NCBI GenBank assembly: GCA_018715365.1
Contig: DVLU01000028.1
Coordinates: 1-64,000, forward strand
Length of the DNA stretch: 64,000 bases
Reading direction: 5' to 3'
DNA from: Candidatus Ornithomonoglobus intestinigallinarum
GTDB lineage: Bacteria > Bacillota > Clostridia > UBA1381
Shown in pieces: positions 30,349-63,566 of this stretch. Under the pieces are notes generated by a model. That model worked only from the letters and a program-made list of their open reading frames with translations. It was not told where the DNA came from and did not search any database. The position numbers and the translations under genes are program-made. The first letter of the stretch is position 1. Each line of letters opens with the position of its first letter.

Positions 30349-30353
30349 CCTCA

Positions 30354-30383
30354 TACGCCAATTTACGCCAAACTTTACGCCAA
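30354..30383 (+). repeat. Three direct TACGCCAA repeats just after int (candidate arm-type Int sites)
   Basis: TACGCCAA at 30354-30361, 30364-30371, 30376-30383; near-match inverted copy ATGGCGTA at 30440-30447. Confidence 0.6.
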
Positions 30384-30599
30384 TTCTCCTGGTATTTATA
30401 AAAAGACATGTAGAGTTATACTGGCTAAGAACAGAAAAAATGGCGTAACTACAGGGTTTTAAACAATTATGAAAAGATATGAAATTGTGGGGAATATATT
30501 CCCCACAATGAAGCCGATTGAGAAGTAAGGCGTGAAAAACCCTGTGTTTATGCGGGTTTTCTTCCGAGCAGTGAATTTTAAAGCAAAATAACATCAAAG

Positions 30600-30634
30600 C
30601 AGCGCTTGAGACGTATATCAAGCGCTGTTTTTTT
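30600..30634 (+). terminator. Intrinsic terminator
   Basis: CAGCGCTTGA..ATCAAGCGCTG TTTTTTT. Confidence 0.7.
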
Positions 30635-30830
30635 GCGGATGTGATACGTAATGTCGCACATAATCGACTTCCGCACAAAGAGTGTGCATCAATTTTCTTT
30701 CGCGTATTGAAAAACGAGAGTGTTTATAGTATAATATAAAATGTTATGTTAAAATATTATGTTTTAGCTTGCTTTGGCGAGAGGTTTAAAATAAAATTGA
30801 TGATACGGGCGAAATGAGGTGAAGTGAGGT

Positions 30831-32138
30831 ATGGCCGGCACTAAAAGCGCAGACGAATTGCTCGGCATGAATTTGAACATTCCCGACTATCAAAGACCGT
30901 ACAAGTGGGGTATCCGAAATATTGATGAATTATTTCTCGATATTACAAAAGCTATTAGTGATGCGGACAGATACAAGGCTGATGGGATCGAGTTTAAGTA
31001 TCGCATAGGGACAATAATATTACATAAAGAAGGCAGCAGATACAATATCGTTGACGGGCAGCAAAGGATTATTTCTTTGGTGCTTCTGAAAAAATGTATT
31101 GACCCGGAGTTTGAATGTTCCGTTACGGAAAAAGTTTTTACAAATAAAACTACTCAATATAATATTCACCGCAACTATACGTTTATCAGAGAATGGTTCT
31201 CCTTGAAAAGCGATGATGTGAAAAAAGAGTTTATTCGCGCCTTTGAGAAGATTTTGGAGGTTGTTGTCTTTTGCGTGGACAAAGAAACCGAGGCATTTCA
31301 GCTTTTTGACTCTCAGAATACAAGAGGGAAGGCATTAGACCCTCACGACCTCCTGAAAGCATATCATCTCCGGGAAATGAAAAAATATCCTTACGAAATG
31401 GAGCGCGCCGTTACTAAGTGGGAAGCGAAAGATCCCGTTAAAATCAAGGAGCTTTTTGACTTGTACTTATTCCCGATACGGAATTGGAGCAGAGGAAATA
31501 AAAGCAAGCCCTTCACCGCCAAGGAAATTGACGCCTATAAGGGTATTACGGAGGGATCGGCATATTCCTATGCAAGACGGACAAGCAAGGCGATGCCTTG
31601 TTTCCAGATTACAGAACCTTTTATAGCGGGAAATGATTTTTTTGAGATGGTTGAGCACTATATGTATCTCCTGCGGGATATTAAATCCGAAATATGCAGT
31701 AATCCTCGTTTCAGAGAAATTAAACGAGTCCTTTGCGGCGGCGGGGAGGTTGATTCTCCGGAAGATATGGATAAGGCGAGGCTTGGCTCCGCCGGTTTCG
31801 GATACACAAAAAATCTGTTTTATTGTGCGCTGCTTTGTTATTACGATAAGTTTCATAATTTTGACGAAATGGCAGTCAAAAAACTGTTCACTTGGGCGTT
31901 CATGCTTCGCGTGGATATGAAAAACCTGGGGTTTGACAGCGTAAACAAATATGCCGTCGGCGATAAAAATTCGAGATATACAAATAAGATCGGAATTTTT
32001 TCGGAGATCAGCTTTGCCCGTATGCACCATGAAATCTCCGGTTTGCAGATACAGGTACGCCGTAATCCGGATAACGGAAAATGGGAAGAGCTGTACAACA
32101 CGATCAAGGAAATCAACGGATACGGAGGTGCACAATGA
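30831..32138 (+). CDS. DUF262-family protein (GmrS-like)
   Basis: LNIPDYQRPYKWGIRNIDELFLDI; RYNIVDGQQRIISLVLL (DGQQR motif); FQLFDSQNTRGKALDPHDLLKAYHLR. Confidence 0.88.
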   Translation: MAGTKSADELLGMNLNIPDYQRPYKWGIRNIDELFLDITKAISDADRYKADGIEFKYRIGTIILHKEGSRYNIVDGQQRIISLVLLKKCIDPEFECSVTEKVFTNKTTQYNIHRNYTFIREWFSLKSDDVKKEFIRAFEKILEVVVFCVDKETEAFQLFDSQNTRGKALDPHDLLKAYHLREMKKYPYEMERAVTKWEAKDPVKIKELFDLYLFPIRNWSRGNKSKPFTAKEIDAYKGITEGSAYSYARRTSKAMPCFQITEPFIAGNDFFEMVEHYMYLLRDIKSEICSNPRFREIKRVLCGGGEVDSPEDMDKARLGSAGFGYTKNLFYCALLCYYDKFHNFDEMAVKKLFTWAFMLRVDMKNLGFDSVNKYAVGDKNSRYTNKIGIFSEISFARMHHEISGLQIQVRRNPDNGKWEELYNTIKEINGYGGAQ

Positions 32139-34099
32139 GCAATTCAATACCCGAGCTTCATATTATCGATGAGAACGATAATAATATCTTCGACACCGAT
32201 ACGGAGTACATTATCCCGCTGTATCAGCGGGCTTATGCCTGGGAAGATAAGCAGCTGACACAATTGGTTGAGGACATAAAAGATGTTTCCGAAGCTGCAA
32301 ATTACTACATGGGCTCTTTGATTGTTTCAAAACAAAACGGAAGATATGAAGTTGTTGACGGTCAGCAGCGTCTTACTTCCCTGTATTTGCTGTTGAACTG
32401 TCTTGGGATAAAAACAAAACCGACGCTTACTTTTGCCTGCAGAGAAAAGTCGAATTATACGTTGAGAAATATCGAAGAAATCATCCTTGACAATCGCAGC
32501 AAATTGGATACGGACAGGATCGAGCCGAGCATACAACGGGGAATAAAGATACTGTCTCAAGAGCTGGGACGAGATGATTTTGATAAAGAAGCTTTTATCA
32601 AGAAACTGGCGAAGGTCGTTATCTGCAGAATTGAGGTGCCGGAAAAAACAGATCTTAACCGCTATTTTGAAATAATGAACACAAGAGGCGAACAATTGGA
32701 GCAGCATGATATTTTGAAAGCTGAGCTTATGGGCTATCTTAATGATGCTGCGGATAAAAGCCTGTTTGCCAAAATATGGGACGCCTGCAGTGATATGACG
32801 GGATATGTTCAGATGCACTTCACCGGCAAAAACAATACATTGCGAGAGCTTATATTTGGTCCCGGCCGGAACGATATGCCGCCGGGCAGCTGGCAGGAAT
32901 ATAAAAAAGCGATAAATGGAGCGGCAGAAGAAACAACCGGAAAGCGTATTTGCGATTTGATCGCTGAAAATTTCGAAATCGAAGACGATGAAGGGTACGT
33001 TAAAGGCGATGAGGGCGATGTTCGCGTGCGGTTTGAAAGTGTTATTGAATTTCCGTATTTTCTGCTGCACACGCTGAAAGTATATGTGGCTCTTAATGGA
33101 ATAAGACATGAGCACGCAGGAGCAAAAATTACGGATGAACTTTCGGATGACAAGAAACTTCCGGATGCTTTTAAGAGAGTTCTCTTGCATGGCGTTTCCG
33201 ATAGCGGTAAGGCTGCGGACGATAAAGAAAATTTTGCCCGCACCTTTATAGTCTGCCTGCTAAGGACTCGATTCCTGTTTGATAAATATATCATTAAGAG
33301 AGAGTACGCAAACGATAGCTCCGAAGGGGAATGGAGCCTTAAAAGCCTCTATGTTTCCGGGAAGCGATCAGAAAAGAAGGCGTATTACAGCAACACCAAG
33401 TTCACAAAAGATGGCCGGTGGGATAAAACAAACGATTGGCTGACCAAAAAAAACATCATGATGCAGTCTGCACTGCGTGTTTCTTATACTTCGCCAAAGG
33501 CAATGCATTGGATCACAAAGCTGCTTATTTGGCTCTCCGAGAACGGCTGTGAGCGCATAAGCAACGGTGATTTGGAACGATATAATGAAGTTTCGGAGGG
33601 CATCGCCGTTGATGCGGTCAAGGAAAACTTCTTCAATGCTTGCGATAAAGACAGCTATGCGATGGGCGTAAACACACCGCATATTGTTTTCAACTATCTT
33701 GATTACCTGCTTTGGAAGCAAGCCCCGGAAAAATATAGCGATTTTGTATTTGAATTCAGAAATTCCGTTGAGCATTGGTATCCGCAAAATCCCTCCGATT
33801 TTGAATCGTGGAAAGACGGCGTTGACCGATTCGGGAATCTTTGTATCATTCAGCGAAATGTCAACGCCAGGTTTTCCAATATATCTCCGGAGGCAAAAAG
33901 CAAATTTGAAGATATAATTGCAAAAGGAAGTATCAAGCTTCGCATTATGAGCGAGCTTACCGAAAAGAACGGAGAAAAAGCTGCCAGGCTTTATTGGAAA
34001 GAAACTGCATGCAGAGTTCACGAAGAAGAAATGATCGGCTGTTTGAAAGCGGCGTGCCGGCAGTATGATGCTGAAACAGGCTCCGAAATGATGACGTGA
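32135..34099 (+). CDS. DUF262 + DUF1524 (HNH-like) protein (GmrSD-like)
   Basis: YIIPLYQRAYAWEDKQLTQLVEDI; RYEVVDGQQRLTSLYLLL; FEIMNTRGEQLEQHDILKAELM; FRNSVEHWYPQNP...FGNLCIIQRNVNARFSN (DUF1524). ATGA overlap with upstream gene. Confidence 0.9.
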   Translation: MSNSIPELHIIDENDNNIFDTDTEYIIPLYQRAYAWEDKQLTQLVEDIKDVSEAANYYMGSLIVSKQNGRYEVVDGQQRLTSLYLLLNCLGIKTKPTLTFACREKSNYTLRNIEEIILDNRSKLDTDRIEPSIQRGIKILSQELGRDDFDKEAFIKKLAKVVICRIEVPEKTDLNRYFEIMNTRGEQLEQHDILKAELMGYLNDAADKSLFAKIWDACSDMTGYVQMHFTGKNNTLRELIFGPGRNDMPPGSWQEYKKAINGAAEETTGKRICDLIAENFEIEDDEGYVKGDEGDVRVRFESVIEFPYFLLHTLKVYVALNGIRHEHAGAKITDELSDDKKLPDAFKRVLLHGVSDSGKAADDKENFARTFIVCLLRTRFLFDKYIIKREYANDSSEGEWSLKSLYVSGKRSEKKAYYSNTKFTKDGRWDKTNDWLTKKNIMMQSALRVSYTSPKAMHWITKLLIWLSENGCERISNGDLERYNEVSEGIAVDAVKENFFNACDKDSYAMGVNTPHIVFNYLDYLLWKQAPEKYSDFVFEFRNSVEHWYPQNPSDFESWKDGVDRFGNLCIIQRNVNARFSNISPEAKSKFEDIIAKGSIKLRIMSELTEKNGEKAARLYWKETACRVHEEEMIGCLKAACRQYDAETGSEMMT

Positions 34100-47807: not shown

Positions 47808-50285
47808 ATGAAAAAGGCTTACTTTAAAAAAGCGTTGCTTATGATTATGTCGCTTGCGCTTATTATAAGCACAATGGCTCTGCCGGCGTCGGCAGAGGGC
47901 GCGTCGGTAACGGACGAAGGCTGGAGGTTTATCGACATCGCCTACGGCAACGGCGTTTACACGGCAATGGCAAAGAACGCCGATTATTCGTCGGCAAAAA
48001 TGTATTACTCAAACGACGGCGGCTTAACGTGGCAGGCAAGCGAAAATCAGCCGCTCGGCAGCGGAGCTGCACTTATTTCCAGCAACAAGCCGTCTCAGCA
48101 GCAGCTTATCTGGTGGGACGCGCATAATATGTTTGTTGCTCACGGCGCCGGCAAAACTTACACATCGTCCGACGGCGTATCGTGGACGGAGAACGCCAAT
48201 CTTCACTGGACAACAAACACAATGTACACGACAGTTGACGATAATCTGATATTCGGCGGACAAGCGGCGTTAAACGTAACAAACGACATCAGTCAAAAGG
48301 ACTTCGGAAAAACAAAGTGCACTATGAATATAACAAACAATTATTATGTGCAGGTAATAGGCGCAAAGCCGGCTGATGAAAACGGGAATATACAGGTATT
48401 CGGCGCGGCATTTAACGGAGCCGTTGACGCAACTCTTGCAACACAGGGCAAGTTCGGTTATACGGGAGAGCAGAACAGATATGCAGAAATCGGCGATAAA
48501 GCGCCTTATGATATGGTTTATGCAAAAGGCGCGGATCAGTTCCTTTATGTTGACGGAACGCAGTTGCTTTATGCGGCAACAAACAAAGATACAATCCCCA
48601 AGTTTGTTGTTAAAGAAGGCGTAAATGTAACGGCGATCGGGGCAAGCGATTCGTATATCGCTGTCGGCATGAGCGACGGTACAATATACTATACGGCAAA
48701 CGATCCAATAACGGCAGAAACGCAGTGGTCGCAGATACCCGTAACCATGGGCGCGGGCACGGCCGAGGCTGTAACGAACATAGAATTTTCGGACGATACA
48801 AACTTTGTTGCCCTTGCCGAAACGGAGGTTTTAAAGGGCAGCGTGAACGGCTGCTATAACATAAACGATTACGTTGAAATAGGCGATATAGAAGTTTCGG
48901 GTCAGAACGTATTTAACGGAGTAAGGCTTATAGGCGGAACATACAGCCCGACGCTTAACAAATACCTCGTTTACGGTGATACAACAACACCCGACGGTGA
49001 CAACAAATACTGGGGCAAGATATTTGTTTCGGAGGACGGTCTCAACTGGAGAGACGTATACACGGGCTATACATTTACAAAAAGGAACGTGAACACCGAA
49101 ACAGGCGCGGTAAGCTACAGCGAGGTAAGGAACGGCGCTGTTTGGTGGGGATCGCAGAGAATATTTATAGTTTCTGCATCGACGCAAGAACACACAGGCG
49201 TTACGCTTGTTTCACCGGACGGCGAAAGCTGGAAGGCGATTCAGTATAAAGGCAATACGGACGCCGAGGGCAATCCGGCTCCCGAGCTTGACACGGATAT
49301 GCAGTTAAATACCGATATAGCCGTTTCGGGCGATAAGCTCTATACAACAAATGGCCGCAGGCAGTTCCGCACATATACGGCATGGAACAGCGCTTCAATG
49401 ATATGGTTCGGAGTTACAAATGTCCCCAATAATTGGAGTATGAATCAGATCGCGGTAAGCGATGATGAGGATCCGGCGGTGCTTATGGCGCAGAACGGAA
49501 ACGGAGCCGTAAGAAATAATGAAAGCACAGCCGAGAACGAGCTTGATAAATGGACACCGATAAATGCAATAGGCGGGGCGGGCGCTCTTACGGACGCGGT
49601 ATTCAGCAAGGCGCTTAATCAATTCGTTGCCGTTTTAAACGATGGATTTAGGACGTCTATAGTAAGCAAGGACGGTTCGGTCGTTCAAGGCCCTATTGTT
49701 TCTGGCAAGGTTTGCAGGGCGATAGATACAAACGGCGAAGCGTTTATGTTTGCCTGCGAGGACGGAAACATTTACACGGCTCCCGATACGGCGGGATTCA
49801 AAAAGGACGAGGTATCGCTTACGCCCGTTCCGGCGGCGGCAGCTGTTGAAACGGCAAACACAATGCCTTTGACAAACGTAATAAAGGCGGGCGATAAGTT
49901 TATCGCAACGGCGACCGACAATGTAAACAGCGATGTGCTGCTTGTTTCAAAGAACAGCGCGGGAACGTATGAATACGTTAAGGCAAGCGAAAACGTTAAG
50001 GCCGCGGAGCTTGTTCCGGGCGAAACGATAACGGTTTCGGTTGACGGCGTAAACAAAACAGACGCTGATTATGAATTCACGCTTATAACGGCAATATATT
50101 CGGACGGCGTGCTTGTGCAGGTTCAGTCGGATGAGCTTGCGGTAACGGCAGGCATGAGCGGCAAGGCTTCAGCCGATGTTGCAATAGGCGCGGACGTTCC
50201 CGAAAATGCCGAAATGAAGATATTTATGTGGGACAGCATGAAGGGCATGGTGCCGTTAAGAGCAGCATACACCCCTTTCGAATAA
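47808..50285 (+). CDS. Secreted beta-propeller-like protein (sialidase/PSII-stability-like N-terminus)
   Basis: Signal peptide MKKAYFKKALLMIMSLALIISTMALPASA; repeated MYYSNDGGLTW, TYTSSDGVSW, IFVSEDGLNWRDV, LVSPDGESWKAI. Confidence 0.82.
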   Translation: MKKAYFKKALLMIMSLALIISTMALPASAEGASVTDEGWRFIDIAYGNGVYTAMAKNADYSSAKMYYSNDGGLTWQASENQPLGSGAALISSNKPSQQQLIWWDAHNMFVAHGAGKTYTSSDGVSWTENANLHWTTNTMYTTVDDNLIFGGQAALNVTNDISQKDFGKTKCTMNITNNYYVQVIGAKPADENGNIQVFGAAFNGAVDATLATQGKFGYTGEQNRYAEIGDKAPYDMVYAKGADQFLYVDGTQLLYAATNKDTIPKFVVKEGVNVTAIGASDSYIAVGMSDGTIYYTANDPITAETQWSQIPVTMGAGTAEAVTNIEFSDDTNFVALAETEVLKGSVNGCYNINDYVEIGDIEVSGQNVFNGVRLIGGTYSPTLNKYLVYGDTTTPDGDNKYWGKIFVSEDGLNWRDVYTGYTFTKRNVNTETGAVSYSEVRNGAVWWGSQRIFIVSASTQEHTGVTLVSPDGESWKAIQYKGNTDAEGNPAPELDTDMQLNTDIAVSGDKLYTTNGRRQFRTYTAWNSASMIWFGVTNVPNNWSMNQIAVSDDEDPAVLMAQNGNGAVRNNESTAENELDKWTPINAIGGAGALTDAVFSKALNQFVAVLNDGFRTSIVSKDGSVVQGPIVSGKVCRAIDTNGEAFMFACEDGNIYTAPDTAGFKKDEVSLTPVPAAAAVETANTMPLTNVIKAGDKFIATATDNVNSDVLLVSKNSAGTYEYVKASENVKAAELVPGETITVSVDGVNKTDADYEFTLITAIYSDGVLVQVQSDELAVTAGMSGKASADVAIGADVPENAEMKIFMWDSMKGMVPLRAAYTPFE

Positions 50286-52402
50286 AGGACGGTCAGGATA
50301 AAAAAATATACGTTTCCCCGGACGGGGACGACGCGGCGGACGGGAGCTTTAACGCTCCCGTCAAGACGCTCCGGCGTGCGCTGGAAATGGCGGAAGATAC
50401 AGGGAATACAAATGCCGGTATTGACATTTTGCTCCGCGAGGGTGTATACTGTATATCCGAAACGATAAATCTGTCACATTCGGCGAAGTGGTACGCGCCG
50501 CTTACGATAAGCGCATATAACGGCGAAAACGTTGTTTTAAACGCAGGCGTTGATATACCGCTTTCCGAAGCGGAGCCTGCGGGCAGTGAGTTTTTGTCGG
50601 AGCTTGTTGAGCCGCCCCCTTACGGCAGCATTTTAAAATACGATTTAAAGGACGCCGGAATAACCGATTACGGTGAAATATCAAGGCGGGGCCATCTTAT
50701 AACGGAGGATAAGGAGGCGCAGGCGGAGCTTGCCGTTGACGGCGAGGTGCAGCGCCTTGCCGGTTGGCCGAACGACGGCTTCACGGGGCTTATAAAGCCG
50801 GAGGATCCCTCCGAATACGGGAAAAGAACGTTATCGGGCATAGCAGACGGCTGCAGCTTCAGGGTGGATTACGACCGTCCGTCCGATTGGAGCAGGCAGG
50901 AGGAGGTTTGGCTTGCCGGAACGCTCGGGCCCAATTACGAGTTTGATTATTATCCGATGAGCCGTTTTGACGAAGCGGAAAAAAGAGTGTATTTAAGAGA
51001 AGGCGCGCTTGTGGAGTATTACACAGAGCCCTGGTACAGGTTTGAAAATATCCCGGAGGAGCTCGACGCCCCCGGCGAATATTACATAGACCGCGAAACG
51101 GGCATGCTGTATTTTTATCCGCCCGAGGGCGCGGATGAAAATTCAACGCTCACAATAACAATGCCGACAAGAAACCCGAAGCAGTATTCGGGAAAATCGC
51201 CCGACGATATGTTCAGGCTCGAGGGCTGCGACAATATAGTCTTTGAGGGGCTGACGCTTAAGGGCGGACGCGGTTCGGCCGTTACCGGCAGGGAGAACAG
51301 CGGAATAAAATTCCTGGACTGCGAGATCGCGTCGTTCGGCGCAAACGGCATACGGCTTGATTTTTCGGACAGGATAGAGGTCCGCGGCTGCGAAATCCAC
51401 GACGTCGGCCAGGACGCGCTGCAGTTTTCAAACTGCGGTGATTATGAGAATTTAACGCCGAATTTCATAATGATATGCAATAACGACATATATGATTTCG
51501 CAAGGCTTGAGCGCAGCTACAAAACGGGAATAAATCTCGGCTACAGATGCGTCGGCGCAACGGCGGCGAGAAACCATGTGCATGACGCGCCGCATTCCGG
51601 AATGATCTTCTACGGCGTGAACAATAGAATATACGGAAACGAATTTGACAATCTCGTTACGGAGTTCAGCGATATGGACGCCGTGTATGCAAACAATTCG
51701 TGCTATCCGTGGGAGCGCGGCAACGTTATACGCGGCAATTACTTCCACGATATAGGCAGACGCTCCATGAACGGCAGGCACCAGATAAACGTAAGGGCAA
51801 TACGCACCGATAACAAGGGCTGCGGCCTTGAGGTTTACGGCAACCTGTTCTACAGGATAGGCGACGGCGGAACGAACGGAAACGGAAACAACGCCGTCGG
51901 CGGCATAACCGCGGAGGGCACGAGGAATAAAATAATTCACAATTTGTTTGTTGACTGCAACGAAACGTACACGAACGGCCAGGCGTACAGGCATATAGAA
52001 ACGGCCGGGGACGGCACGCTTTATTCCGATGACGGCGTGATAAACGGCGCGAAGGTTTCGGAGCTTAAAAAGGAAATGGAAAGACGGCTTCCCGTTTACG
52101 GGAATTATTTCCCGGAGCTTTATAATTTCTTTAACGAGCATCCGAATATGTCGAAAACAAATGAGTTTAAAGACAACATAATAATAAATATAGAATTTCC
52201 GTTAAGCAGATATAACGGCGAAATATCGGAGGAGGGCTTCCGCGGCGATGAACGTCTTGTTGACGCATCGGGCAATTTTGCGGGAACGGACGACCCGGGA
52301 TTTAAGTCGTATGAGGACGGAGATTTAGAGCTTTCGCAGGAGGCGCGTTCTCTTGCCGAGGGCTTCCCGAATATAAAAATGAGCAGCTTCGGGACATTTT
52401 AA
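50228..52402 (+). CDS. Right-handed beta-helix protein (glycoside hydrolase/lyase-like); start uncertain, overlaps the previous gene and may be a -1 frameshift extension
   Basis: KKIYVSPDGDDAADGSFNAPVKTLRRALEMAE...GVYCISETINL; VDGEVQRLAGWPNDG; GEYYIDRETGMLYFYPPEGAD; beta-helix repeats. No ATG/GTG/TTG between upstream stop (50285) and the conserved KIYVSPDG. Confidence 0.85.
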   Translation: MGQHEGHGAVKSSIHPFRIKDGQDKKIYVSPDGDDAADGSFNAPVKTLRRALEMAEDTGNTNAGIDILLREGVYCISETINLSHSAKWYAPLTISAYNGENVVLNAGVDIPLSEAEPAGSEFLSELVEPPPYGSILKYDLKDAGITDYGEISRRGHLITEDKEAQAELAVDGEVQRLAGWPNDGFTGLIKPEDPSEYGKRTLSGIADGCSFRVDYDRPSDWSRQEEVWLAGTLGPNYEFDYYPMSRFDEAEKRVYLREGALVEYYTEPWYRFENIPEELDAPGEYYIDRETGMLYFYPPEGADENSTLTITMPTRNPKQYSGKSPDDMFRLEGCDNIVFEGLTLKGGRGSAVTGRENSGIKFLDCEIASFGANGIRLDFSDRIEVRGCEIHDVGQDALQFSNCGDYENLTPNFIMICNNDIYDFARLERSYKTGINLGYRCVGATAARNHVHDAPHSGMIFYGVNNRIYGNEFDNLVTEFSDMDAVYANNSCYPWERGNVIRGNYFHDIGRRSMNGRHQINVRAIRTDNKGCGLEVYGNLFYRIGDGGTNGNGNNAVGGITAEGTRNKIIHNLFVDCNETYTNGQAYRHIETAGDGTLYSDDGVINGAKVSELKKEMERRLPVYGNYFPELYNFFNEHPNMSKTNEFKDNIIINIEFPLSRYNGEISEEGFRGDERLVDASGNFAGTDDPGFKSYEDGDLELSQEARSLAEGFPNIKMSSFGTF

Positions 52403-52453: not shown

Positions 52454-55150
52454 GTGAAAAAGAAAATAGCTTTGCTGCTGACGGCCGCATTGCTTGTGCA
52501 GGGCGGAGCAGCCGCTTTGGCGGCCGATTACCCCGACACGAAGGGTCACTGGGCCGAGAGTATTATAGACAGCCTCACAGAGGACGGCGTGGTTCAGGGC
52601 GACGGCCGGAACTTCAGGCCGGACAGCGACGTGAACGTGGATGAATTTCTTAAAATGATTCTGACGGCGATGGGCGAGGAGATCGAGCCCGCGCAGGGCG
52701 GCTATTGGGCGCAGCCGTATATAGACAGGGCGCTCGAGCTTGAGCTTATATATTCTGACGAATTTGCGGACGGCTATGCGCGTCCCGTAACGCGGTACGA
52801 AATCGCGATGATAAGCACAAGGGCAATAGACGCAAACGAGGTGACGGGCGCGCTTCGCGATCAGATAATCGGCAAAATATCGGATTATTACGATATTTAC
52901 AATTACGATAAGGAATACGTCCTTGCGGCGTACGCGAACAATCTGCTTTACGGCTACGAGGACAACAGCTTCCGCGGCTACAACAACACAACACGCGCCG
53001 AAGCGTGCGTTATAGTAAGCCGCGTTATGTCGGCGGGCGACTTTGAAAGACCGTCAACCGACAATCCCGACGTTCCGCAGGATCTGGGCGACGTATTCTA
53101 TGTTGCGTCAAACGGAAACGATAATAACGCAGGAACGGCAGACGCGCCGTTTGCGACGCTTGCAAAGGCACAGGAGGCGGTCAGGGAAACGCTTAAGAGC
53201 GACGGCGCGCACGAAAACGGCATAACGGTTTATCTGCGCGGCGGCGAATACGATATAACGGGTTCTCTCGAGCTTGCGTATGAGGATTCCGGCACGGAGG
53301 ACTGCCAGGTAACGTGGGCGTCGTATCCGGGAGAAACGGCAAGGCTTACGGGCAGCGTGGCGCTGCCGCACGATGCGTTTGAGCCTATAGACGATGAAAT
53401 GGGCTCAAAGCTTATAGAAAGAAGCGCCGCCGATGAGGTCCTGCAGATAGACCTCAACGAGCTCGGTATAACAAATCTGGGCAGGCTTTCAAGACGCGGC
53501 TACTTAATAGCCGAATCGGGCGTTCTGCCGCAGGCGGAATTGTATATAGACGGCAGCAGGCAGCAGCTTTCGAGATGGCCCAACAGCGAATGGGTCGGAA
53601 CAACAGGCATTGTGCGGAGCGGCGCAAGAAGCCAGTCGGGAGTGCTTGAGGGCGCGGTGTTCAATATAGATTACGACCGCCCAACAAAATGGCATAACCA
53701 GATAGACCAGATATATACGGCAGGCGTTCTCGGCCCCAACTATTTCTACGGCTATTTCCCGATAGGCGAAATAAAGCCGGGCGAGATAACGCTGAGGGAA
53801 GGCTCCGTTACGAATTATTATTCGAAGCATTTTATAAGATATGAAAATATCTTTGAAGAAACGGATATGCCGGGCGAGTATTACATAGACCGCGAAACGG
53901 GTATGCTGTATCTCTATCCGCCGGAGGGCTTCGGCGCCGATACCGATATAAGGCTCTCGATGCTCGAGGAAAATATGATAACGGGCGACAACGTTAAAAA
54001 CGTAACGTTTAAGAACCTGCAGTTCGATACGATGCGCGCCGGGGCGATAAGGATAACGAACGCCGAAAACGTCAATATAGAAAACTGCACGGTTTACGGC
54101 ACGGGCACGCACGGAGTGTATTTAAGAGGAACAAACTGCTCCGTGAAGAACAGCCTTATCCACGACATCGGTGCAAACGGCATTCAGATGGGCGGCGGCG
54201 ATTACGCGCAGGAGATAGACAGCGGCAACGAAATAACAAACAATCATATTTATAAGGCCGCGCAGATAGAACGCTCGTATCAGGCGGGAATACTGCTCGA
54301 TTACCAGTCGGTCGGCATAAAGGTAAGCCATAACGAAATACACGATATGCCGCATACGGCAGTGATAATCTACGGTCCGAACCACACGGTCGAGTATAAC
54401 AATATATACGACGCAGTTAAGGAATTCCACGATATGGATGCCATATACCTTAACGTATACCAGTATCCGTGGGAGAGAAACGTTGTTATAAGACGCAATT
54501 ATATACACGACTTCGGGCAGCAGACGTTCACGGAGCGTCAGATGAACGTTGCCGGCGTCAGAACGGATAACAACGGAAACGGACTTCAGGTGCTGGAGAA
54601 TGTATTCTACAACATAGGCTATCAGAACGCAAACGGTATACGCGCCGTATGCGCACAGGGTATAGACAACGTTGTAAAGAACAATATATTCATAGACCTC
54701 TCGGGAACGTACGACGGTCCTCATACGTATAACCCGAGCGCAAGATGGGATATAACGTCATCGACGGTAAAGCCGATATACGATCAGTGGCTTATCTACA
54801 GCCCCGTATATTCGCAGAAGAATCCCGAGGTTGCAACGTTCTTCGATCATCACTTCCAGGCGTATGAGAAGAACAATATATTCAAGGACAATGTTATAGT
54901 AAATATCGCGTTCCCGCTCGGCACGTCGAATTACCAGACGACGGGTCAGGGCTTTATGGCAAGCGATCAGCTTGTTGACGCCTCCGGGAATATCGTCACA
55001 CAGGAGGACCCCGGATTTGTGGATTACGCGGGAGAAAACTTTACATTAAAGCCCGACAGCAGGGTGTATTCGGAAATAGAGAATTTCCCGGAGATAGATT
55101 TTGAAAATATGGGAACTCTTGCGGATACGCCTGTCGGAGTAACACAATAG
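52454..55150 (+). CDS. SLH-domain secreted right-handed beta-helix protein
   Basis: Signal peptide; YPDTKGHWAESIIDSLTEDGVVQGDGRNFRPDSDVNVDEFL (SLH) x3; YVASNGNDNNAGTADAPFATLAKAQEAVRE...GGEYDITGSLEL; DGSRQQLSRWPN; GEYYIDRETGMLYLYPPEG. Confidence 0.9.
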   Translation: MKKKIALLLTAALLVQGGAAALAADYPDTKGHWAESIIDSLTEDGVVQGDGRNFRPDSDVNVDEFLKMILTAMGEEIEPAQGGYWAQPYIDRALELELIYSDEFADGYARPVTRYEIAMISTRAIDANEVTGALRDQIIGKISDYYDIYNYDKEYVLAAYANNLLYGYEDNSFRGYNNTTRAEACVIVSRVMSAGDFERPSTDNPDVPQDLGDVFYVASNGNDNNAGTADAPFATLAKAQEAVRETLKSDGAHENGITVYLRGGEYDITGSLELAYEDSGTEDCQVTWASYPGETARLTGSVALPHDAFEPIDDEMGSKLIERSAADEVLQIDLNELGITNLGRLSRRGYLIAESGVLPQAELYIDGSRQQLSRWPNSEWVGTTGIVRSGARSQSGVLEGAVFNIDYDRPTKWHNQIDQIYTAGVLGPNYFYGYFPIGEIKPGEITLREGSVTNYYSKHFIRYENIFEETDMPGEYYIDRETGMLYLYPPEGFGADTDIRLSMLEENMITGDNVKNVTFKNLQFDTMRAGAIRITNAENVNIENCTVYGTGTHGVYLRGTNCSVKNSLIHDIGANGIQMGGGDYAQEIDSGNEITNNHIYKAAQIERSYQAGILLDYQSVGIKVSHNEIHDMPHTAVIIYGPNHTVEYNNIYDAVKEFHDMDAIYLNVYQYPWERNVVIRRNYIHDFGQQTFTERQMNVAGVRTDNNGNGLQVLENVFYNIGYQNANGIRAVCAQGIDNVVKNNIFIDLSGTYDGPHTYNPSARWDITSSTVKPIYDQWLIYSPVYSQKNPEVATFFDHHFQAYEKNNIFKDNVIVNIAFPLGTSNYQTTGQGFMASDQLVDASGNIVTQEDPGFVDYAGENFTLKPDSRVYSEIENFPEIDFENMGTLADTPVGVTQ

Positions 55151-55166
55151 GAAAGGGTGACTGTAA

Positions 55167-58100
55167 TTGAAGTTAAAAAGATTAGCAGCAGCCATACTTA
55201 CGGTATTTATGCTGATGAACCTTGCCGCGGTTATGCCGGCAATGGCAATGACCGTCAATGTAGGGAGCGGGTATGAGTTTGTCGATACCGCCTACAGCCC
55301 CAAGAAAGATATTTATGTTGCCGTTGCGAGAAACAGCGGCGGAACGGCGAAAATTTATTATTCAAACGGCGGCGAAACATGGCAGGAAGCGGAACGGACG
55401 GCAGATTCCAAGACCTTCGATATGCGCGCAAACATACAGCCGAACTCCCAGCAAAGAGTTGTATGGTGGCCCAAAGAACAGGTGTTTGTTACTTTCCACA
55501 TAGTACCCAATGCCGAAAAGCTGCTCTGCTCAGAGGACGGCAAAACGTGGACGGAATTCAGCCGAACAGGCACAAACTACCTTTATGCGGTATCGGGTGA
55601 CGGTCAGCAGCTTGCCGTTATGAGACACGTGCTTATAGCGCTTGATTCGCTGGAAGAAGGAAATATGTCCGCCTTACCGACGGTTGACATCAGAGGTCTG
55701 GGCAATGACAGCAGCGGTGCCGGAATGATGGCGGTCGGCGTAAGCGATACGGCGCCTTATATCTACGCCGTATTCAGACAGAAGGGCAACGGTATGCGTA
55801 TAGCAGCACAGCCGATAGTCCCGACGCCGGAGCCCACCGAGGAAGCGCAGCTTGCCGAGGCGGAGACGGCAGAAGAAGCGGTTGAAGAAATTGCAGAGCC
55901 TACGGCCGAGCCTGTTGAAGCGACAACCGAGCCGACAGCCGAACCGACTGTTGAGCCTGTTGAAGCAACGGCAGAGCCTGCTGAAGCGACCGTTGAACCG
56001 ACTGCCGAACCTACGGCAGAGCCTGTTGAAGAAACAGCAGAACCTGTTGAGGAAACGGCAGAACCTGTTGAAGCAACTGCTGAGCCGACAGCCGAGCCTG
56101 TTGAAGAAACGGCAGAGCCGGAGCTTATGACGGCGGAGGCCGAGGCGGAGCCTAAGATGGCAGGCGCGGAGCTTATGGCCGAAACAACGGATTATACAAA
56201 GTACGCAACAACTGATGTGGCATACAACTTTACGCAGGATCCCATAGATGCGATATGGTCAAAGCCGATGGCGGGCTGGTTTGTCATAAACGGAGCGGAG
56301 CTCACGTTTGTAAAGCCCGAAAGGACAACGGCGAAGCCGACGGCGACCGCAAAGGGTGCAACTGAGCTTTCGATGTCCGACGGCGGCAAGGCGTCGGGTG
56401 AGAAATTCACGGCTGCCGGAACAAACAGTGATACCGTAATAGTCGGCACGGAAAGCGGCAAGCTCTACGCGGCGGCGGCTTCGGAGAATATCATGGACGA
56501 AGGAAGCCTTGCATGGAGCCGCGTTGAACCGGGCGCAGACGTGGAAACGGAAATAAACGAAAGAGTAAAGTCTATTTCGGAGATAAACGATAACGCGTTC
56601 TTCTTTGCAACAAACACAGGCCTTTATACGGCAGCGAGGGAGAGCGACGGAAGCTGGCGCTATCATGATATTGCAAAATCAAATATCATTGCCGACAGCG
56701 ACACATCAAAAACAAGAATAGAAGTTCCCGAGGAGGGAAGCACATCGGTAACGCTTACTCCGGAATCGAGAACGTGGGCCGGCTATCAGTCGCAGAACAC
56801 GATAACGGGTATATCGATAGATAACGCTGAAATGCCGCAGGGCGTAAACGCAGAGGTGTCGGGCGGCAGCGTAAACGTTACCGTTGAAAGCACGGCAGAC
56901 CCCGAAGCCGATAACAACATAGACGTAACGGTGACAACGGCAAGCAGCCAGGCTTACAGCTTTGAAATAACAGTCGTTTCGCCGGCACAGCCCGACGTAA
57001 CGGGTTACGACGAAATGGCAATACCGCAGCGCGGAACGGCGGCGAAGGAATATCAGTATTCCGCCGTTATAATGGGTACGGACGGACTTCCGATGGAAAC
57101 GCGCGAAGCGCGCATGGAGGTAATAGAAGTGCCGGAGGGCGTTGAATTCGATCCCGCAACGGGTATATTCACAGTAACGGAGGACGCCAAGGCCGGTACG
57201 GTGCTGCTGCACATTTATCCGGGAGACACAACGGAAAACCCGACAATAAAAGAAATCACACTAAGCGAAAGCCATTCGGTAAGAGCCGAGATAACGCTCG
57301 GCCCGGCAGAGCTTCAGATACCGGATGACGCTGCGCTCAACCAGGAATATACCGCGACATTCTACAGCCAGATAGACGAGGTCATGATTCACGAGAGCCC
57401 CGTATGGACCGTTGAAATCCCCGAGGGCTCGGAGGCCGGCGGCATAAGCATGGATGACGGCAAGCTGAGCGTTCCGTCAAACGCTACGGCGGGAAAGATA
57501 ATCATCAGGGCCGTATCGTCGGATAATCCGGAAATATACGCGGAAAAGGAAGTTGAGCTTACATACACGGATAAGAGAAAGGCGACCGAGGATCTGAGCC
57601 CGATAACGTTCGATACGTCGAAGCCTCTTGAGGATGACCTCACGTTTATAACAACGGGCGCGGAATTCGGCAGCACAATCACCTACAAAAGCTCGGATGA
57701 GAACATATTAAAGCCGGACGGTACGCTTATAAGACCGAGCCGCGAGGACGGCAGCGTTATATTAACAGCCACATCGACGCTCGGCAGCGGCAGAGCCGAA
57801 AAGCAGTGGGAATTCAAGGTTACAAAGGCCGATGATTTAAGCGCCAACGGCGACCTTTCGGACGGCACAACAGCCGGCTGGACGCCGGAGGACGGCGCGC
57901 AGCTTGAGGTTACGTCGGAGGAGGACAACAACATCTTAAACGTAACGGGCGGCGGAGTTTATCAGACGTTCGAATTCACAAACGAAAGCAGCTACGGCTT
58001 CGAAGCGCGCGTAAGAGCGGCTGCGGGGTCAACGATAACGCTCCTTTCGGAAGCGGGCGGAAAAATAGCCGAAATAACGGCGGACGGCGATTGGCAGGAG

Positions 58101-59132
58101 CTTAAGGGCTCGGTTACGTTTAAGCGCCAGTCGGATAATTTTGAGGATAAGGTTTATATAAGATACAGCACTGCGTCAAGAAGCGGCGATTTCAGCGTTG
58201 ATTATCTTAAGGCGTATGAAATAACGCTTGAGCTTTCAAAGGTCCAAAACGCCGTGAACAAGGCGACGTACAGCAAAACCCAGGCAGATATAGACGCAGC
58301 GGAAAAGCTGCTCGAGGAATTCTACGATCTGCCGATAAAGGACGAAATGCAGGAAACGCTTGACGATATAGAGCCTGTAAACAGCGGAAGCGGCTCCGGC
58401 GGCGGCGGAGGCGGCTCAAGCTCCGGCGGCGGCGGTGGCGGCGGAGGCGTCAGCAGACCGCCTTCAACGGTAGACACCATAACAGGCCCCAACAATATAT
58501 CGACCCCGTCAAAGGGCGAGGATGATTACGAGGATGAGCTCGACACGTACCTTCTGCACTTTAAGGATATGAAGAACCACTGGGCAAGAGAGGACGTTGA
58601 ATACATGGCGGAGCTCGGCATAATACAGGGCAAGGAAGAGGATAAATTCATGCCCGACGATAAAATAACAAGAGCCGAATTTGCGGTGCTTATAACGCGC
58701 ACGCTCGGTCTTTCGGAAACACCGTATGAAAATTCATTCTTCGACGTTGTTGCCGACGACTGGTATTCGGGCTACGTTCAGACGGTAAGAAGCAATAACT
58801 TCATGAACGGTTATGACGGATTGTTTAACCCCGATTCGAACATAACAAGAGAGGAAATAGCAAAGGTTATAGTTGCGGCATACAACAGCCGCACAAATAC
58901 GGCGCTTGAAACGGGTAAGTCGATATACTTTAACGATATAGACATGATAAGCTCGTGGGCATGGGATTACGTTGCGGAGGCGGCAGAGCTCGGCTTTGTA
59001 AACGGAATGACGGAGGAGCTCTTTATGCCGAAGGAAACGGCAACAAGAGCCCAGGCCGCAACAATGCTCAGGCGTGTATACGACACATTAAACCCGACGT
59101 CAACAGGGGATAGCGAATCCGAGGCCGCTTAA
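55167..59132 (+). CDS. Large SLH surface protein: propeller-like N-terminus, EPTAEPVEE low-complexity region, Ig/carbohydrate-binding-like domains, Gly/Ser linker, C-terminal SLH x3
   Basis: Signal peptide; YYSNGGETWQEA; repeats EPTAEPVEATAEP; GSGSGGGGGGSSSGGGGGGGGVSRPP; FKDMKNHWAREDVEYMAELGIIQGKEEDKFMPDDKITRAEFAVLITR. Confidence 0.88.
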   Translation: MKLKRLAAAILTVFMLMNLAAVMPAMAMTVNVGSGYEFVDTAYSPKKDIYVAVARNSGGTAKIYYSNGGETWQEAERTADSKTFDMRANIQPNSQQRVVWWPKEQVFVTFHIVPNAEKLLCSEDGKTWTEFSRTGTNYLYAVSGDGQQLAVMRHVLIALDSLEEGNMSALPTVDIRGLGNDSSGAGMMAVGVSDTAPYIYAVFRQKGNGMRIAAQPIVPTPEPTEEAQLAEAETAEEAVEEIAEPTAEPVEATTEPTAEPTVEPVEATAEPAEATVEPTAEPTAEPVEETAEPVEETAEPVEATAEPTAEPVEETAEPELMTAEAEAEPKMAGAELMAETTDYTKYATTDVAYNFTQDPIDAIWSKPMAGWFVINGAELTFVKPERTTAKPTATAKGATELSMSDGGKASGEKFTAAGTNSDTVIVGTESGKLYAAAASENIMDEGSLAWSRVEPGADVETEINERVKSISEINDNAFFFATNTGLYTAARESDGSWRYHDIAKSNIIADSDTSKTRIEVPEEGSTSVTLTPESRTWAGYQSQNTITGISIDNAEMPQGVNAEVSGGSVNVTVESTADPEADNNIDVTVTTASSQAYSFEITVVSPAQPDVTGYDEMAIPQRGTAAKEYQYSAVIMGTDGLPMETREARMEVIEVPEGVEFDPATGIFTVTEDAKAGTVLLHIYPGDTTENPTIKEITLSESHSVRAEITLGPAELQIPDDAALNQEYTATFYSQIDEVMIHESPVWTVEIPEGSEAGGISMDDGKLSVPSNATAGKIIIRAVSSDNPEIYAEKEVELTYTDKRKATEDLSPITFDTSKPLEDDLTFITTGAEFGSTITYKSSDENILKPDGTLIRPSREDGSVILTATSTLGSGRAEKQWEFKVTKADDLSANGDLSDGTTAGWTPEDGAQLEVTSEEDNNILNVTGGGVYQTFEFTNESSYGFEARVRAAAGSTITLLSEAGGKIAEITADGDWQELKGSVTFKRQSDNFEDKVYIRYSTASRSGDFSVDYLKAYEITLELSKVQNAVNKATYSKTQADIDAAEKLLEEFYDLPIKDEMQETLDDIEPVNSGSGSGGGGGGSSSGGGGGGGGVSRPPSTVDTITGPNNISTPSKGEDDYEDELDTYLLHFKDMKNHWAREDVEYMAELGIIQGKEEDKFMPDDKITRAEFAVLITRTLGLSETPYENSFFDVVADDWYSGYVQTVRSNNFMNGYDGLFNPDSNITREEIAKVIVAAYNSRTNTALETGKSIYFNDIDMISSWAWDYVAEAAELGFVNGMTEELFMPKETATRAQAATMLRRVYDTLNPTSTGDSESEAA
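55890..56125 (+). repeat. In-frame tandem low-complexity repeat (EPTAEP/VEETAEP)
   Basis: Repeated GAGCCTGTTGAAG.A.C.GCAGAGCC units read directly. Confidence 0.85.
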
Positions 59133-59223
59133 AACGGCTTTGCCGCTCCGGAAAGCTTCGGAGCGGCGGTCCGCCGGACCGGATATATGAAACCGATTAA
59201 CGAAAGGAGACGGTGATACGATA

Positions 59224-61893
59224 ATGAAACGAATAATAGGTATCTGCTTCCTGGCGCTCACAATGCTGTTTAATTCATCGTTCGTGCTTGCGGCCGATGA
59301 TGAGGAGAGTACGTCAAATCTGACCGATTCGCAGAGAGAAACAATCTCGCTGCTCAACTCTCTCGGCATTTTTGATGAGCTTGGCGAGGAGGACGCGGAA
59401 GGGAATATAACAAGAGCTGAATTTGCCGAAATAGCTGTGCGCGTTGTCGGCGGAGACGATCAGCTTTCGGAATCGCCGAGAAGGATATATGTGGATGTTC
59501 TGCCCGAGGATGAAGGCGCGGCAAGCATCGAATATCTTTACAACAGCGGGCTTATGCTCGGCTATGAAAACGCGGAGTTTAAGCCGCAGGAGCTTATAAA
59601 GGTCGAGGAAGCCGCAACGGTGCTCGTTAAGGCGCTCGGCTACACAAACTGGGCCGAATACGACGGCGGCTGGGTTGACGGATATTATTCGATAGCCTTA
59701 AAGGAAGGCCTGCTCGACGGCGTTGAGGGCGCAAGAGGCGAAGCGATAACGTATACCGACCTTGCAATCATGGTAAGAAACACGCTCGAGTGCCGTGAGT
59801 TTGTTGTAAAGAACGGCTTTGAGCAGGGGCTCCCCGTTGAGGAAACACAGACGGGAACGGCGTATATGAGCTATGCTTTAAATATCTATATGTACACGGG
59901 CATTGTTGACGGCGTGGGCGAAACTTCGCTTTCCGACGCCGACACGGAATTCCGTTCGGATATGTGCAGCATAGACGGTGAAATGTTCAATATGGGCGAG
60001 GTTGATATGACGCCGTATCTCGGTATGAGAGTAAAGGTTTATTACCTTGCCGAAAATTATGATTACACGGTGCTGTTCGTTACGGAGGACAGAAACAGCA
60101 ATAACGTTGTTGAAATTGCCGCTGATGATATTAACAGCGCGTCAACAAGCTCCGTAAATTACGTTTCCGGCACAAGGGACCGCATAGCCGATATAAGCAG
60201 CGACGCTATCTTTATCTACAACGGCAAGCGCCTTGAAACGGTAAGCGATCTTGACCTTATGATAGGCGACGGCAGCCTTAAGCTTATAAGCAACGACGGC
60301 AACGACAGGGCGGACGTTGTTGTAATAACGGAATACAAAACGTATATCGTAAGCAAGGCCGTTGTAACGGATTACATACTTCACTTTAAGTATGACGCGC
60401 CTTCGCTTGACCTGAGCGGCGACGAGTATACGGTTAAGTATTACATGGACGGCGAGGAAGCCGAATTTGCGAACATAACAACAAACAGCGTGCTTTCGAT
60501 AGCGATGAGCAAGAACCTTACGGGAAATATCCTTGTTAATGTTTATATATCGAACAACAAGGTGGAGGGCACGGTAACGAGAGTTGAGAGCGTAGGCAAA
60601 ACAAAGCTTGCAGCGCTTGAGGACGGAACGGAGTATTATTTCACTTCGGAATATATGAGCCGTCTTGAAAGCGGCCAGGGCAATACGTATGAGCCCACCC
60701 CCGGCGTTGCGGGAACGCTTTATATAGACTACTTCGGAAAGCTTGCCGCGTATATGACGGGCGGCACCGGCAAGAACTACGCTTATGTTGTAAAGTGCTG
60801 GTATGACGAAAACGAGGAAAAAGGCCAGGTAAGACTGTTCACAAAGGACGGCGAATTTATCGACCTTGCGCTTGTTGACGACGTAAGCATGAACGGCAGC
60901 AGAGTGTCACCGGCAAATGTCCGCGGCCAGCTCGAAAAGACGGGCGAGGGCGGCGAAGTGTATCAGCTTATTATATACAACAGCAATTCGGACGAGGAGA
61001 TCACTTCAATAGAAACGGCCGTTGATATGACTCTTGAAACGGCGCAAAACGGATATTATATCGCGCAGGAGGATGAATTTGTACTGAATTACGTGAGAGC
61101 AACCGGTGCGATGCGTTTCTACAAGAACATGGCGGAGCATCTTCCGTACTGCTACGTTGACGGCGAAACGATACAGTTCATGGTCCCCGCGGATAAGACG
61201 GACGAAAAGAATTACAGCGTATTGACAAAGCCGGAAACGACGGACGTTGCGTTCCCCGGCCCGATATATATCTATGACGCGAAGGAATCGGGACGCATAG
61301 GCGCTCTTGTAACGAACACGAAGGCGTCGAACCGTTACGATACGCCCGTTGTTATAAACAACGTATACGAGGGCATAGATGAGGACGGCGAGGTCTGCAC
61401 GGGTCTTGAATTTGCAAACGGCACAAAGATGCTTATAAATTCGGATGCGTCGATCGAACCGGTAACGGGCGGCAGATGGGAAGAAGCCACTGATTACGAC
61501 GGCTATACGTTTAAGGACCTTAAGCGCGGCGACGTTATTGAATATATAACGGACGGTTCAAACAATATAGATAAGTTGAGAATAGTTGTAAAATCCGACA
61601 ATATAGGCGGTTTAAGACTTAACGGAACAGACCAGGAATGGATTCAGCGAAGCGGAAATATGGTGGCCGAGGTCATATCGGTTGCCGACAGCAGAACGGC
61701 GCTTGTCAAGTACAGCTACCAGAAGGGCGGCAATATGATTTATCAGACGATGCTCGTAAACGGCCCGACTTACAGATACGACAGCACGGAAAACATGGTC
61801 TACAATTCATCGATGGCCGACCTTATGCCGGGCGACATAGTGCTTATAAATTCGTTCTGGTGGTCGCCGAATCTGGTTGTAATATTCAGATAA
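59224..61893 (+). CDS. SLH-domain secreted protein with novel-looking beta-rich body
   Basis: Signal peptide MKRIIGICFLALTMLFNSSFVLAAD; ITRAEFAEIAVRVVGGDDQ...YNSGLMLGYENAEFKPQELIKVEEAATVLVKALGY (SLH-like). Confidence 0.82.
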   Translation: MKRIIGICFLALTMLFNSSFVLAADDEESTSNLTDSQRETISLLNSLGIFDELGEEDAEGNITRAEFAEIAVRVVGGDDQLSESPRRIYVDVLPEDEGAASIEYLYNSGLMLGYENAEFKPQELIKVEEAATVLVKALGYTNWAEYDGGWVDGYYSIALKEGLLDGVEGARGEAITYTDLAIMVRNTLECREFVVKNGFEQGLPVEETQTGTAYMSYALNIYMYTGIVDGVGETSLSDADTEFRSDMCSIDGEMFNMGEVDMTPYLGMRVKVYYLAENYDYTVLFVTEDRNSNNVVEIAADDINSASTSSVNYVSGTRDRIADISSDAIFIYNGKRLETVSDLDLMIGDGSLKLISNDGNDRADVVVITEYKTYIVSKAVVTDYILHFKYDAPSLDLSGDEYTVKYYMDGEEAEFANITTNSVLSIAMSKNLTGNILVNVYISNNKVEGTVTRVESVGKTKLAALEDGTEYYFTSEYMSRLESGQGNTYEPTPGVAGTLYIDYFGKLAAYMTGGTGKNYAYVVKCWYDENEEKGQVRLFTKDGEFIDLALVDDVSMNGSRVSPANVRGQLEKTGEGGEVYQLIIYNSNSDEEITSIETAVDMTLETAQNGYYIAQEDEFVLNYVRATGAMRFYKNMAEHLPYCYVDGETIQFMVPADKTDEKNYSVLTKPETTDVAFPGPIYIYDAKESGRIGALVTNTKASNRYDTPVVINNVYEGIDEDGEVCTGLEFANGTKMLINSDASIEPVTGGRWEEATDYDGYTFKDLKRGDVIEYITDGSNNIDKLRIVVKSDNIGGLRLNGTDQEWIQRSGNMVAEVISVADSRTALVKYSYQKGGNMIYQTMLVNGPTYRYDSTENMVYNSSMADLMPGDIVLINSFWWSPNLVVIFR

Positions 61894-61970
61894 CGGCAGC
61901 ATGAAAAATGCGCGGCGCGCATTAAATTAAGTTTCTGATTTAGTTTAAACTTTATGAAAGGAGCAGATAC

Positions 61971-63566
61971 ATGAAAAAGAAAGGATTAAAAAAGGTTTTG
62001 GCGCTTGCAATGGCAGCGGCAATGGCGCTGCCTGCGCTGGCAGGCTGCGGCGGAGGAGGCGAAACCGCACAAACTGACGACGGCAGCGAGCAGGTAACTC
62101 TTAAGTGGGTGTTCGTGGGCCCCGGCGAGCAGCAGGATTCGCAGAAGGTTTGGGATAAGTTCAACGAGGTGCTTGCAAATTACCTTCCGAACACAACGGT
62201 TGAGTTTGAGTGCATAACCTCGGCGGACTATGCTGAAAAATGGAAGCTCATGAGCGCGTCTCAGGAGAACCTCGATATTGTATGGCACGGCTGGATGCTG
62301 CCGTATGTGAGCGAGGTCAAGAAGGGTTCGTATATGGAGCTTGACGAGCTTATAGATAAAGTGGCTCCCGAGCTTTACGAGGCGATACCCGAAAACATAA
62401 TGGACAAATCGCGTGTTGACGGCAAGCTCTACAGCATACCCAACATGCAGGAGATGGTTTCGTATGTGTCGTCGCTCGATTTCCCGATAGACATTTACGA
62501 AAAGTACAAGGATAAGATAAATCCCGAGGAGCTTGCAAACTTCTTTGCGGAGCACGAAACGATGGATAAGGAATCGTGGGATAAGATAGAGGAATACATC
62601 AAGATGATAAAGGACGGCGGCGACCTTGAAAAGGGCGTTTACGGCTTCGCCGACCACGTTGAAAAGGGTTACGAGTGGATCTCAAACCCGTACAAGATAA
62701 AGGCGGAGGGCGACGATTACACGCCGATAAACCTTTACAGGACTCCCGAATACAAGACGTTCGTTGAGGTATATGCCGACTGGTTCAACAAGGGCTATAT
62801 CAGAAAGGACATCTTAACGGCGGAGAACGTCGGAACGGAAAGATACGAGGTAAAGGGCGGCGCAAGCTATCTTGTGGGCCAGGGCTATATGCCGACACAG
62901 TCGGAAATAGACCAGAAGGCGGCGTCGGGCGATACGGCGTATGTGAGAATCCCGTTTGAGAACAAGCACTATATCCCGTATGCCGCAGCGGCGTCAAATA
63001 CGGCGATCTCGATGAATTCACAGCATCCCGAGCGCGCAATGAAGCTTATCGCGCTTATGAATACCGAAGCCGGAGCAGAGCTTTACAACCTGCTTGTTTA
63101 CGGTATAGAGGGCGAGCACTATAAAAAGATAAACGAAAACGAGATACAGCCCATAGGCTACACCTCACAGCCCACCTCGGACAGCCCGTACGGTCAGTAT
63201 GACTGGGCTATAGGCTCGATATTCAACGGCTATGAGATATACATGGAGGATAAGCCGCTTACGCTTCAGAACGACTTTATAAAGAAGGTAAACGAGGAAG
63301 CGGCGCCTTCAAAGCTCAAGGGCTTCACTCTCGATACAGACCCGATAAAGATAGAGCTTGCGCAGGTAACGGCTGTTGTCGGCGAGTATAAATCATCGCT
63401 TGCAACGGGCGCTGCGGCAGACCCAATGGGCTTGTATGAGGAGTTCCAGGAGAAGCTCATAACAGCCGGCGACGACAAGATAGTTGAAGAAATTTCGCGT
63501 CAGATAGAAGAATGGCGTGCGGGAAATTCGGGCGGTGAAACGGCTGAAGCCGAAGCTGCCGAATAA
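61971..63566 (+). CDS. Extracellular solute-binding lipoprotein (carbohydrate ABC transporter)
   Basis: Lipobox ALAGCGGGG; VTLKWVFVGPGEQQDSQKVWDKFNEVLANYLPNTTVEFECI; ISMNSQHPERAMKLIALMNTEAGAELYNLLVYGIEGEHYKKINEN. Confidence 0.93.
   Translation: MKKKGLKKVLALAMAAAMALPALAGCGGGGETAQTDDGSEQVTLKWVFVGPGEQQDSQKVWDKFNEVLANYLPNTTVEFECITSADYAEKWKLMSASQENLDIVWHGWMLPYVSEVKKGSYMELDELIDKVAPELYEAIPENIMDKSRVDGKLYSIPNMQEMVSYVSSLDFPIDIYEKYKDKINPEELANFFAEHETMDKESWDKIEEYIKMIKDGGDLEKGVYGFADHVEKGYEWISNPYKIKAEGDDYTPINLYRTPEYKTFVEVYADWFNKGYIRKDILTAENVGTERYEVKGGASYLVGQGYMPTQSEIDQKAASGDTAYVRIPFENKHYIPYAAAASNTAISMNSQHPERAMKLIALMNTEAGAELYNLLVYGIEGEHYKKINENEIQPIGYTSQPTSDSPYGQYDWAIGSIFNGYEIYMEDKPLTLQNDFIKKVNEEAAPSKLKGFTLDTDPIKIELAQVTAVVGEYKSSLATGAAADPMGLYEEFQEKLITAGDDKIVEEISRQIEEWRAGNSGGETAEAEAAE

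Follow-up and report, generated by a model that had tools for sequence, protein, structure and literature searches.

The gene for a predicted secreted beta-propeller protein in the DNA stretch analysed here (the window: 64,000 nucleotides of contig DVLU01000028.1 from Candidatus Ornithomonoglobus intestinigallinarum) continues in the −1 frame into a beta-helix reading frame, and this frame break is real and conserved, not an error. Judging from the sequence, ribosomes almost certainly cross the junction by −1 frameshifting. Very probably, this frameshifting is programmed and aided by a long-range stimulator, so as to yield the propeller both alone and, in part, extended by a GH141-like beta-helix. 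According to the mechanism we propose, most ribosomes would terminate at the 0-frame stop and release the secreted propeller, while a fraction would slip back by one base on C_CCT_TTC, with tRNA-Pro and tRNA-Phe re-pairing on CCC TTT, and would then read on in the −1 frame to make one long secreted protein comprising the propeller and the GH141-like beta-helix. Slippage would probably be promoted by the element GGACGGTC (E1), sitting 7 nt after the heptamer, where the mRNA would enter the ribosome, and pairing with GACCGTCC (E2), which a hairpin 578 nt downstream would expose in its loop; a local hairpin about 31 nt after the heptamer is the second probable promoter of slippage.

The 0-frame propeller gene (47808–50285, plus strand; an ORF of 825 aa), with an N-terminal signal peptide recognized by inspection, ends in the window with ACC CCT TTC GAA TAA. 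The slippery heptamer C_CCT_TTC occupies positions 50273–50279 (plus strand), and the stop TAA (50283–50285, plus strand) lies one codon 3′ of it. The initial annotation had read the heptamer as fitting X_XXY_YYZ in the 0 frame, with a −1 slip continuing as CGA ATA AAG GAC GGT CAG and onward; the phase was borne out by the ORF and sequence check, and the read-through proved correct, the −1 frame being open to 52402. The −1 extension (50280–52402, plus strand) would thus encode about 705 aa, and the predicted trans-frame peptide of the window is AAYTPFRIKDGQDK. The beta-helix ORF had also been said to have no ATG, GTG or TTG, which is slightly off: GTG 50228 is the sole standard start in the −1 frame 5′ of the beta-helix domain in the window. 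This codon had been given as ATG, while the ATG is in fact at 50226, in the 0 frame.

A protein search of 199 relatives added 11 genomes with the gene, all from the same Clostridia family as the window; the repeated search of 70 family and 95 order genomes returned the same 12 loci, and 391 genomes drawn evenly from the class gave no extra locus. These 12 loci, i.e., the window and 11 orthologues (L003–L013) from six genera, all belong to one bacterial family and come mostly from metagenome assemblies. The named records for the orthologues are uncultured Clostridia or Firmicutes and Lachnospiraceae bacterium MD329, the latter record bearing no metagenome-assembly label. All 12 loci have the beta-helix ORF in frame −1 relative to the propeller gene and none has an in-frame fusion, the short domain-to-domain linker being of near-equal length; in every case where a genome had a good propeller match, the −1 beta-helix was also present. 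The genome of the window is a draft (84.8% complete, 104 contigs), which might speak for an assembly error, a recent indel or a pseudogene, but 12 loci, taken from different assemblies, share the identical break with both ORF halves open and conserved, which rules out an error or indel and leaves this explanation a negligible probability.

The orthologues bear equally on the question of a separate start. No start codon for the beta-helix ORF is shared across the 12 orthologous loci, a start with an RBS was sought in the orthologues and found in none, and four of them (L004, L005, L012 and L013) have no possible standard start for the −1 ORF at all; the note of a missing start therefore holds in the sense that none is conserved. 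Moreover, the −1 frame is closed 10–15 codons 5′ of the junction in six of the nine core loci (the window and L003–L010; four genera). Initiation at GTG 50228 is not conserved and is ruled out as a general explanation, so that the alternatives raised in the initial annotation (an indel, an assembly error, this internal start) are all excluded as general explanations. It is also very improbable that translational coupling, with reinitiation on a non-standard codon after the propeller stop, gives a separate beta-helix protein. The overlap is indeed very tight, ATA or CTG lies close to the stop in some orthologues, and the window has GTG 50228; however, apart from the starts just described, the product would be devoid of a signal peptide, and C_CCT_TTC, E1 and E2 would be left unexplained. 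If −1 frameshifting operates instead, the fusion would be the sole route to a secreted beta-helix.

The junction itself is constrained at the nucleotide level. All nine core loci, out of the 12, have an unchanged C_CCT_TTC in the same 0-frame phase, the stop 0–1 codon on, a 7-nt spacer and then (G)GACGGTCA; the post-spacer sequence is GGACGGTCA in the core loci, with CGACGGTCA in L008. The residue preceding the heptamer varies (T, V, A, I, N) but its wobble base is always C, and among 53 variable columns, a fixed wobble base with a varying residue occurs only in this one. Similarly, in the all-Gly (47) and all-Pro (18) columns of the −1 ORF, a single codon serves all nine loci only at the element and the heptamer. 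Synonymous conservation peaks at the junction (0.955, the highest value of the ORF of about 700 codons), fourfold sites outside the junction being near saturation. The exact composite motif CCCTTTCNNNTANNNGACGGTCA has nine matches in the 70 family genomes, all at these junctions, which is more than chance; three inexact matches elsewhere in the family were inspected (L053, L055, L060), none being a frame junction, and a motif scan of viral contigs gave no match. In E. coli, C_CC.U_UU.C is reported to give high-level frameshifting and H_HH.U_UU.Y to be an efficient class (PMC4066793). We infer that ribosomes slip at the junctions studied here, and may do so efficiently.

The three remaining loci (L011–L013; genera g7 and g9) have neither E1/E2 nor CCCTTTC, but each carries a slip-prone T run that abuts the 0-frame stop. 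The slip site of L011 is T_TTT_TTT (T7 at the junction), while L012 and L013 have T_TTT only, with T5 immediately 5′ of the 0-frame stop, and an extended local stem in place of the long-range pair; it would seem that these loci have reconstructed the recoding signal and not lost it. A long-range duplex at a similar distance in L011 is only suggestive, as its candidate partner at +588 was equalled in 7 of 60 and 14 of 60 shuffles. The T7 and T5 tracts could also suit slippage of RNA polymerase instead of the ribosome, but the nine core sites carry only CCC(C) and TTT runs, shorter than polymerase slippage is known to require, and a phase-specific heptamer with downstream RNA structure suits ribosomes. 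We rate polymerase slippage as very improbable.

E1 (50287–50294, plus strand) follows the heptamer after the spacer GAATAAA. Its portion GACGGTCA is invariant in all nine core loci and its leading G is present in eight, L008 having a mismatch to E2 at the first E1 base. A second cluster of synonymous conservation (codons 195–208) holds, again in all nine, GAC CGT CC, the reverse complement of GGACGGTC. That this partner E2 (50873–50880, plus strand), the reverse complement of E1, lies 578 nt downstream of it is new; across the nine loci, E2 is found 582–600 nt from the heptamer start. Its Arg codon is CGT in 9/9, whereas CGT makes up 5–17% of the Arg codons in these genes and encodes the homologous Arg of the paralogue in four of nine; the GAC codon of E2 is also usual in the paralogue. 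The alignment contains five invariant runs of at least 6 nt, with only one pair complementary over 7 nt, for which random runs of the same composition give a null P = 0.002, the complementarity having been noticed post hoc. At column 1407 of the −1 ORF alignment, the invariant 8-mer ATGGACGC encodes Met-Asp-Ala and may reflect protein constraint only, because Met has a single codon.

E2 is placed in the apical loop of a distal hairpin, SL2 (50856–50893, plus strand), whose predicted 12-bp helix is paired in 93.5% of cells over the nine sequences vs. 33–63% for slid registers, with a mean z of −2.0 vs. synonymous shuffles; the 5′ arm of SL2 falls within TGCAGCTT, another of the invariant runs. 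Covariation in SL2 is weak because just one pair changes on both sides, and for E1/E2 it cannot be shown because both barely vary. The energy of the E1–E2 duplex in the window was matched by 8–9 of 60 shuffles and is thus unremarkable, so that the case for a long-range contact rests on the nine-way invariance and the rare codons. No E1 partner within 400 nt is shared among the orthologues. Taken together, the data make a long-range E1–E2 contact in the cell likely.

Closer to the slip site, the local hairpin SL1 (CGTTTCCCC-GGAC-GGGGACG; 50311–50330, plus strand) lies about 31 nt after the heptamer, and in most orthologues a hairpin at this place exceeds synonymous shuffles in stability (mean z −2.6, n = 12; weak in L005 and L010), E1 being the linker 5′ of the local hairpin in most predicted folds. 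RNAalifold over 60–220 nt downstream produced no convincing common fold, because the register of the local hairpin shifts between species, and synonymous-shuffle tests were therefore used instead. E1 and the local hairpin, both under synonymous constraint, probably constitute a stimulatory signal. In the initial annotation, E1, the hairpin at the SL1 site and the complementary loop 578 nt on had been overlooked, and another hairpin, ACGGGAGC-tttaac-GCTCCCGT (50339–50362, plus strand), had been pointed out: it is present about 60 nt downstream as described, but it recurs in L003 only and was dropped as a conserved stimulator. Inspection of 45 nt upstream revealed no conserved Shine–Dalgarno-like stimulator about 10 nt 5′ of the slip site.

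Could the local signals suffice, with E2 conserved for other reasons (Asp-Arg-Pro codons, folding or chance) and its complementarity to E1 coincidental? The local hairpin is strong by itself, the duplex energy in the window is not exceptional, and L012 and L013 seem to cope with a local stem. Nevertheless, we find this unlikely, as E1 and E2 are two of the five invariant runs and the sole complementary pair, the Arg codon of E2 is rare yet invariant, a third invariant run builds the hairpin displaying E2, and E1 has no shared nearer partner. Frameshifting with the long-range stimulator has a further implication: E2 lies in a coding region reached only by frameshifted ribosomes, so that each slip would melt the contact behind the ribosome. 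Tentatively, and with less than even confidence, we suggest that recoding at this bacterial chromosomal gene works as a self-limiting switch. If this is true, the amount of ribosome traffic along the transcript would govern the fusion/propeller ratio and, with it, the stoichiometry of an extracellular system that degrades glycans.

As to the proteins, the AF2 model of the 0-frame product is a tandem beta-propeller with a C-terminal sandwich, its best PDB matches being tandem propeller folds. At L039 (2357–5998, genome G006), the propeller open frame comprises 1214 aa and gives two separate matches to the window propeller; hence, the length of the 0-frame partner varies, the junction being unchanged. 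The −1 part was modelled as a right-handed beta-helix with the best structure match to 5mqp (the GH141 glycoside hydrolase BT_1002; E 1.9e-21, 16% identity), and a profile match to GH141 has E 2e-15, in an alignment that does not reach the D523/D564 part of 5mqp. By modelled fold and sequence similarity, the −1 domain is a GH141-like beta-helix. The catalytic Asp pair of GH141 is D523/D564 of BT1002 (PMC10154630), and the activities described for the family concern pectin RG-II, xylan and fucan (PMC10154630, PMC12786026). The domain found here resembles BT_1002 in its N-terminal sequence signature and overall beta-helix fold but differs in its predicted expression, by which frameshifting appends it to a propeller.

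Six named loci were inspected: in each, the propeller/beta-helix pair precedes a beta-helix paralogue and, in most, it follows two ABC-type permeases (domains assigned from the window). The operon goes on in the window (52454–63566) with an SLH beta-helix paralogue, followed by two more SLH proteins, the first of 1321 aa and with a weak match to a carbohydrate-binding domain, and by a DUF3502 protein (61971–63566), which is probably a sugar-binding lipoprotein. The permeases, the DUF3502 protein and the SLH proteins point to glycan use, and the operon likely represents a surface glycan-use system. Elsewhere in the window (29098–34099), a Tn916-like integrase gene precedes two restriction genes of the GmrSD type, and together they may represent an integrated element serving defence.

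Conserved programmed frameshifting is reported to be rare in non-mobile cellular genes (PMC5009743), and our literature search for frameshifting in gut Firmicutes or in secreted or polysaccharide-related genes of Clostridia found no report of this case. It adds a case from gut Clostridia in which an exported protein would gain an enzyme domain through predicted frameshifting. Gene callers will annotate the beta-helix as a protein that is truncated or has no leader, and such fusions are therefore probably missed. Among bacterial chromosomal genes, −1 frameshifting operates in dnaX, copA and cso2 (PMC5009743). The predicted situation here is similar in that a non-mobile gene gives two products with a common N-terminus, the shift yielding the longer one as in cso2 and some dnaX; it differs in the heptamer, the stimulator and the protein families, in having no conserved Shine–Dalgarno-like stimulator, and in the predicted export of the products.

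Contact between two RNA elements is also known for −1 frameshifting in bacterial IS elements, where IS3411-type stimulators join an apical loop and an internal loop over 44–104 nt (PMC5009743). In contrast to these transposons, we deal with a non-mobile gene for a secreted protein and a span of 578 nt, i.e., with a candidate bacterial stimulator split over nearly 600 nt. This makes the junction a compact testable system for studying how distant RNA contacts may control ribosomes in bacteria. Such a long-range arrangement has so far been known mainly from plant viruses: in barley yellow dwarf virus, red clover necrotic mosaic virus and PEMV RNA2, −1 frameshift signals involve long-distance pairing, the proximal partner being the internal loop of an adjacent stem-loop and the distance reaching up to 4 kb (PMC5009743). 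Just as in these viruses, an element a few nt after a −1 heptamer would pair with a far downstream apical loop, and E2 does lie in a predicted apical loop as in luteoviruses and dianthoviruses. Unlike the viral proximal partners, E1 is predicted to form a single-stranded linker 5′ of a hairpin and not an internal loop of an adjacent stem-loop, which sets the junction apart from the viral long-distance class; here, moreover, the gene is bacterial, and E2, at a distance of 578 nt, is situated within the −1 coding region itself.
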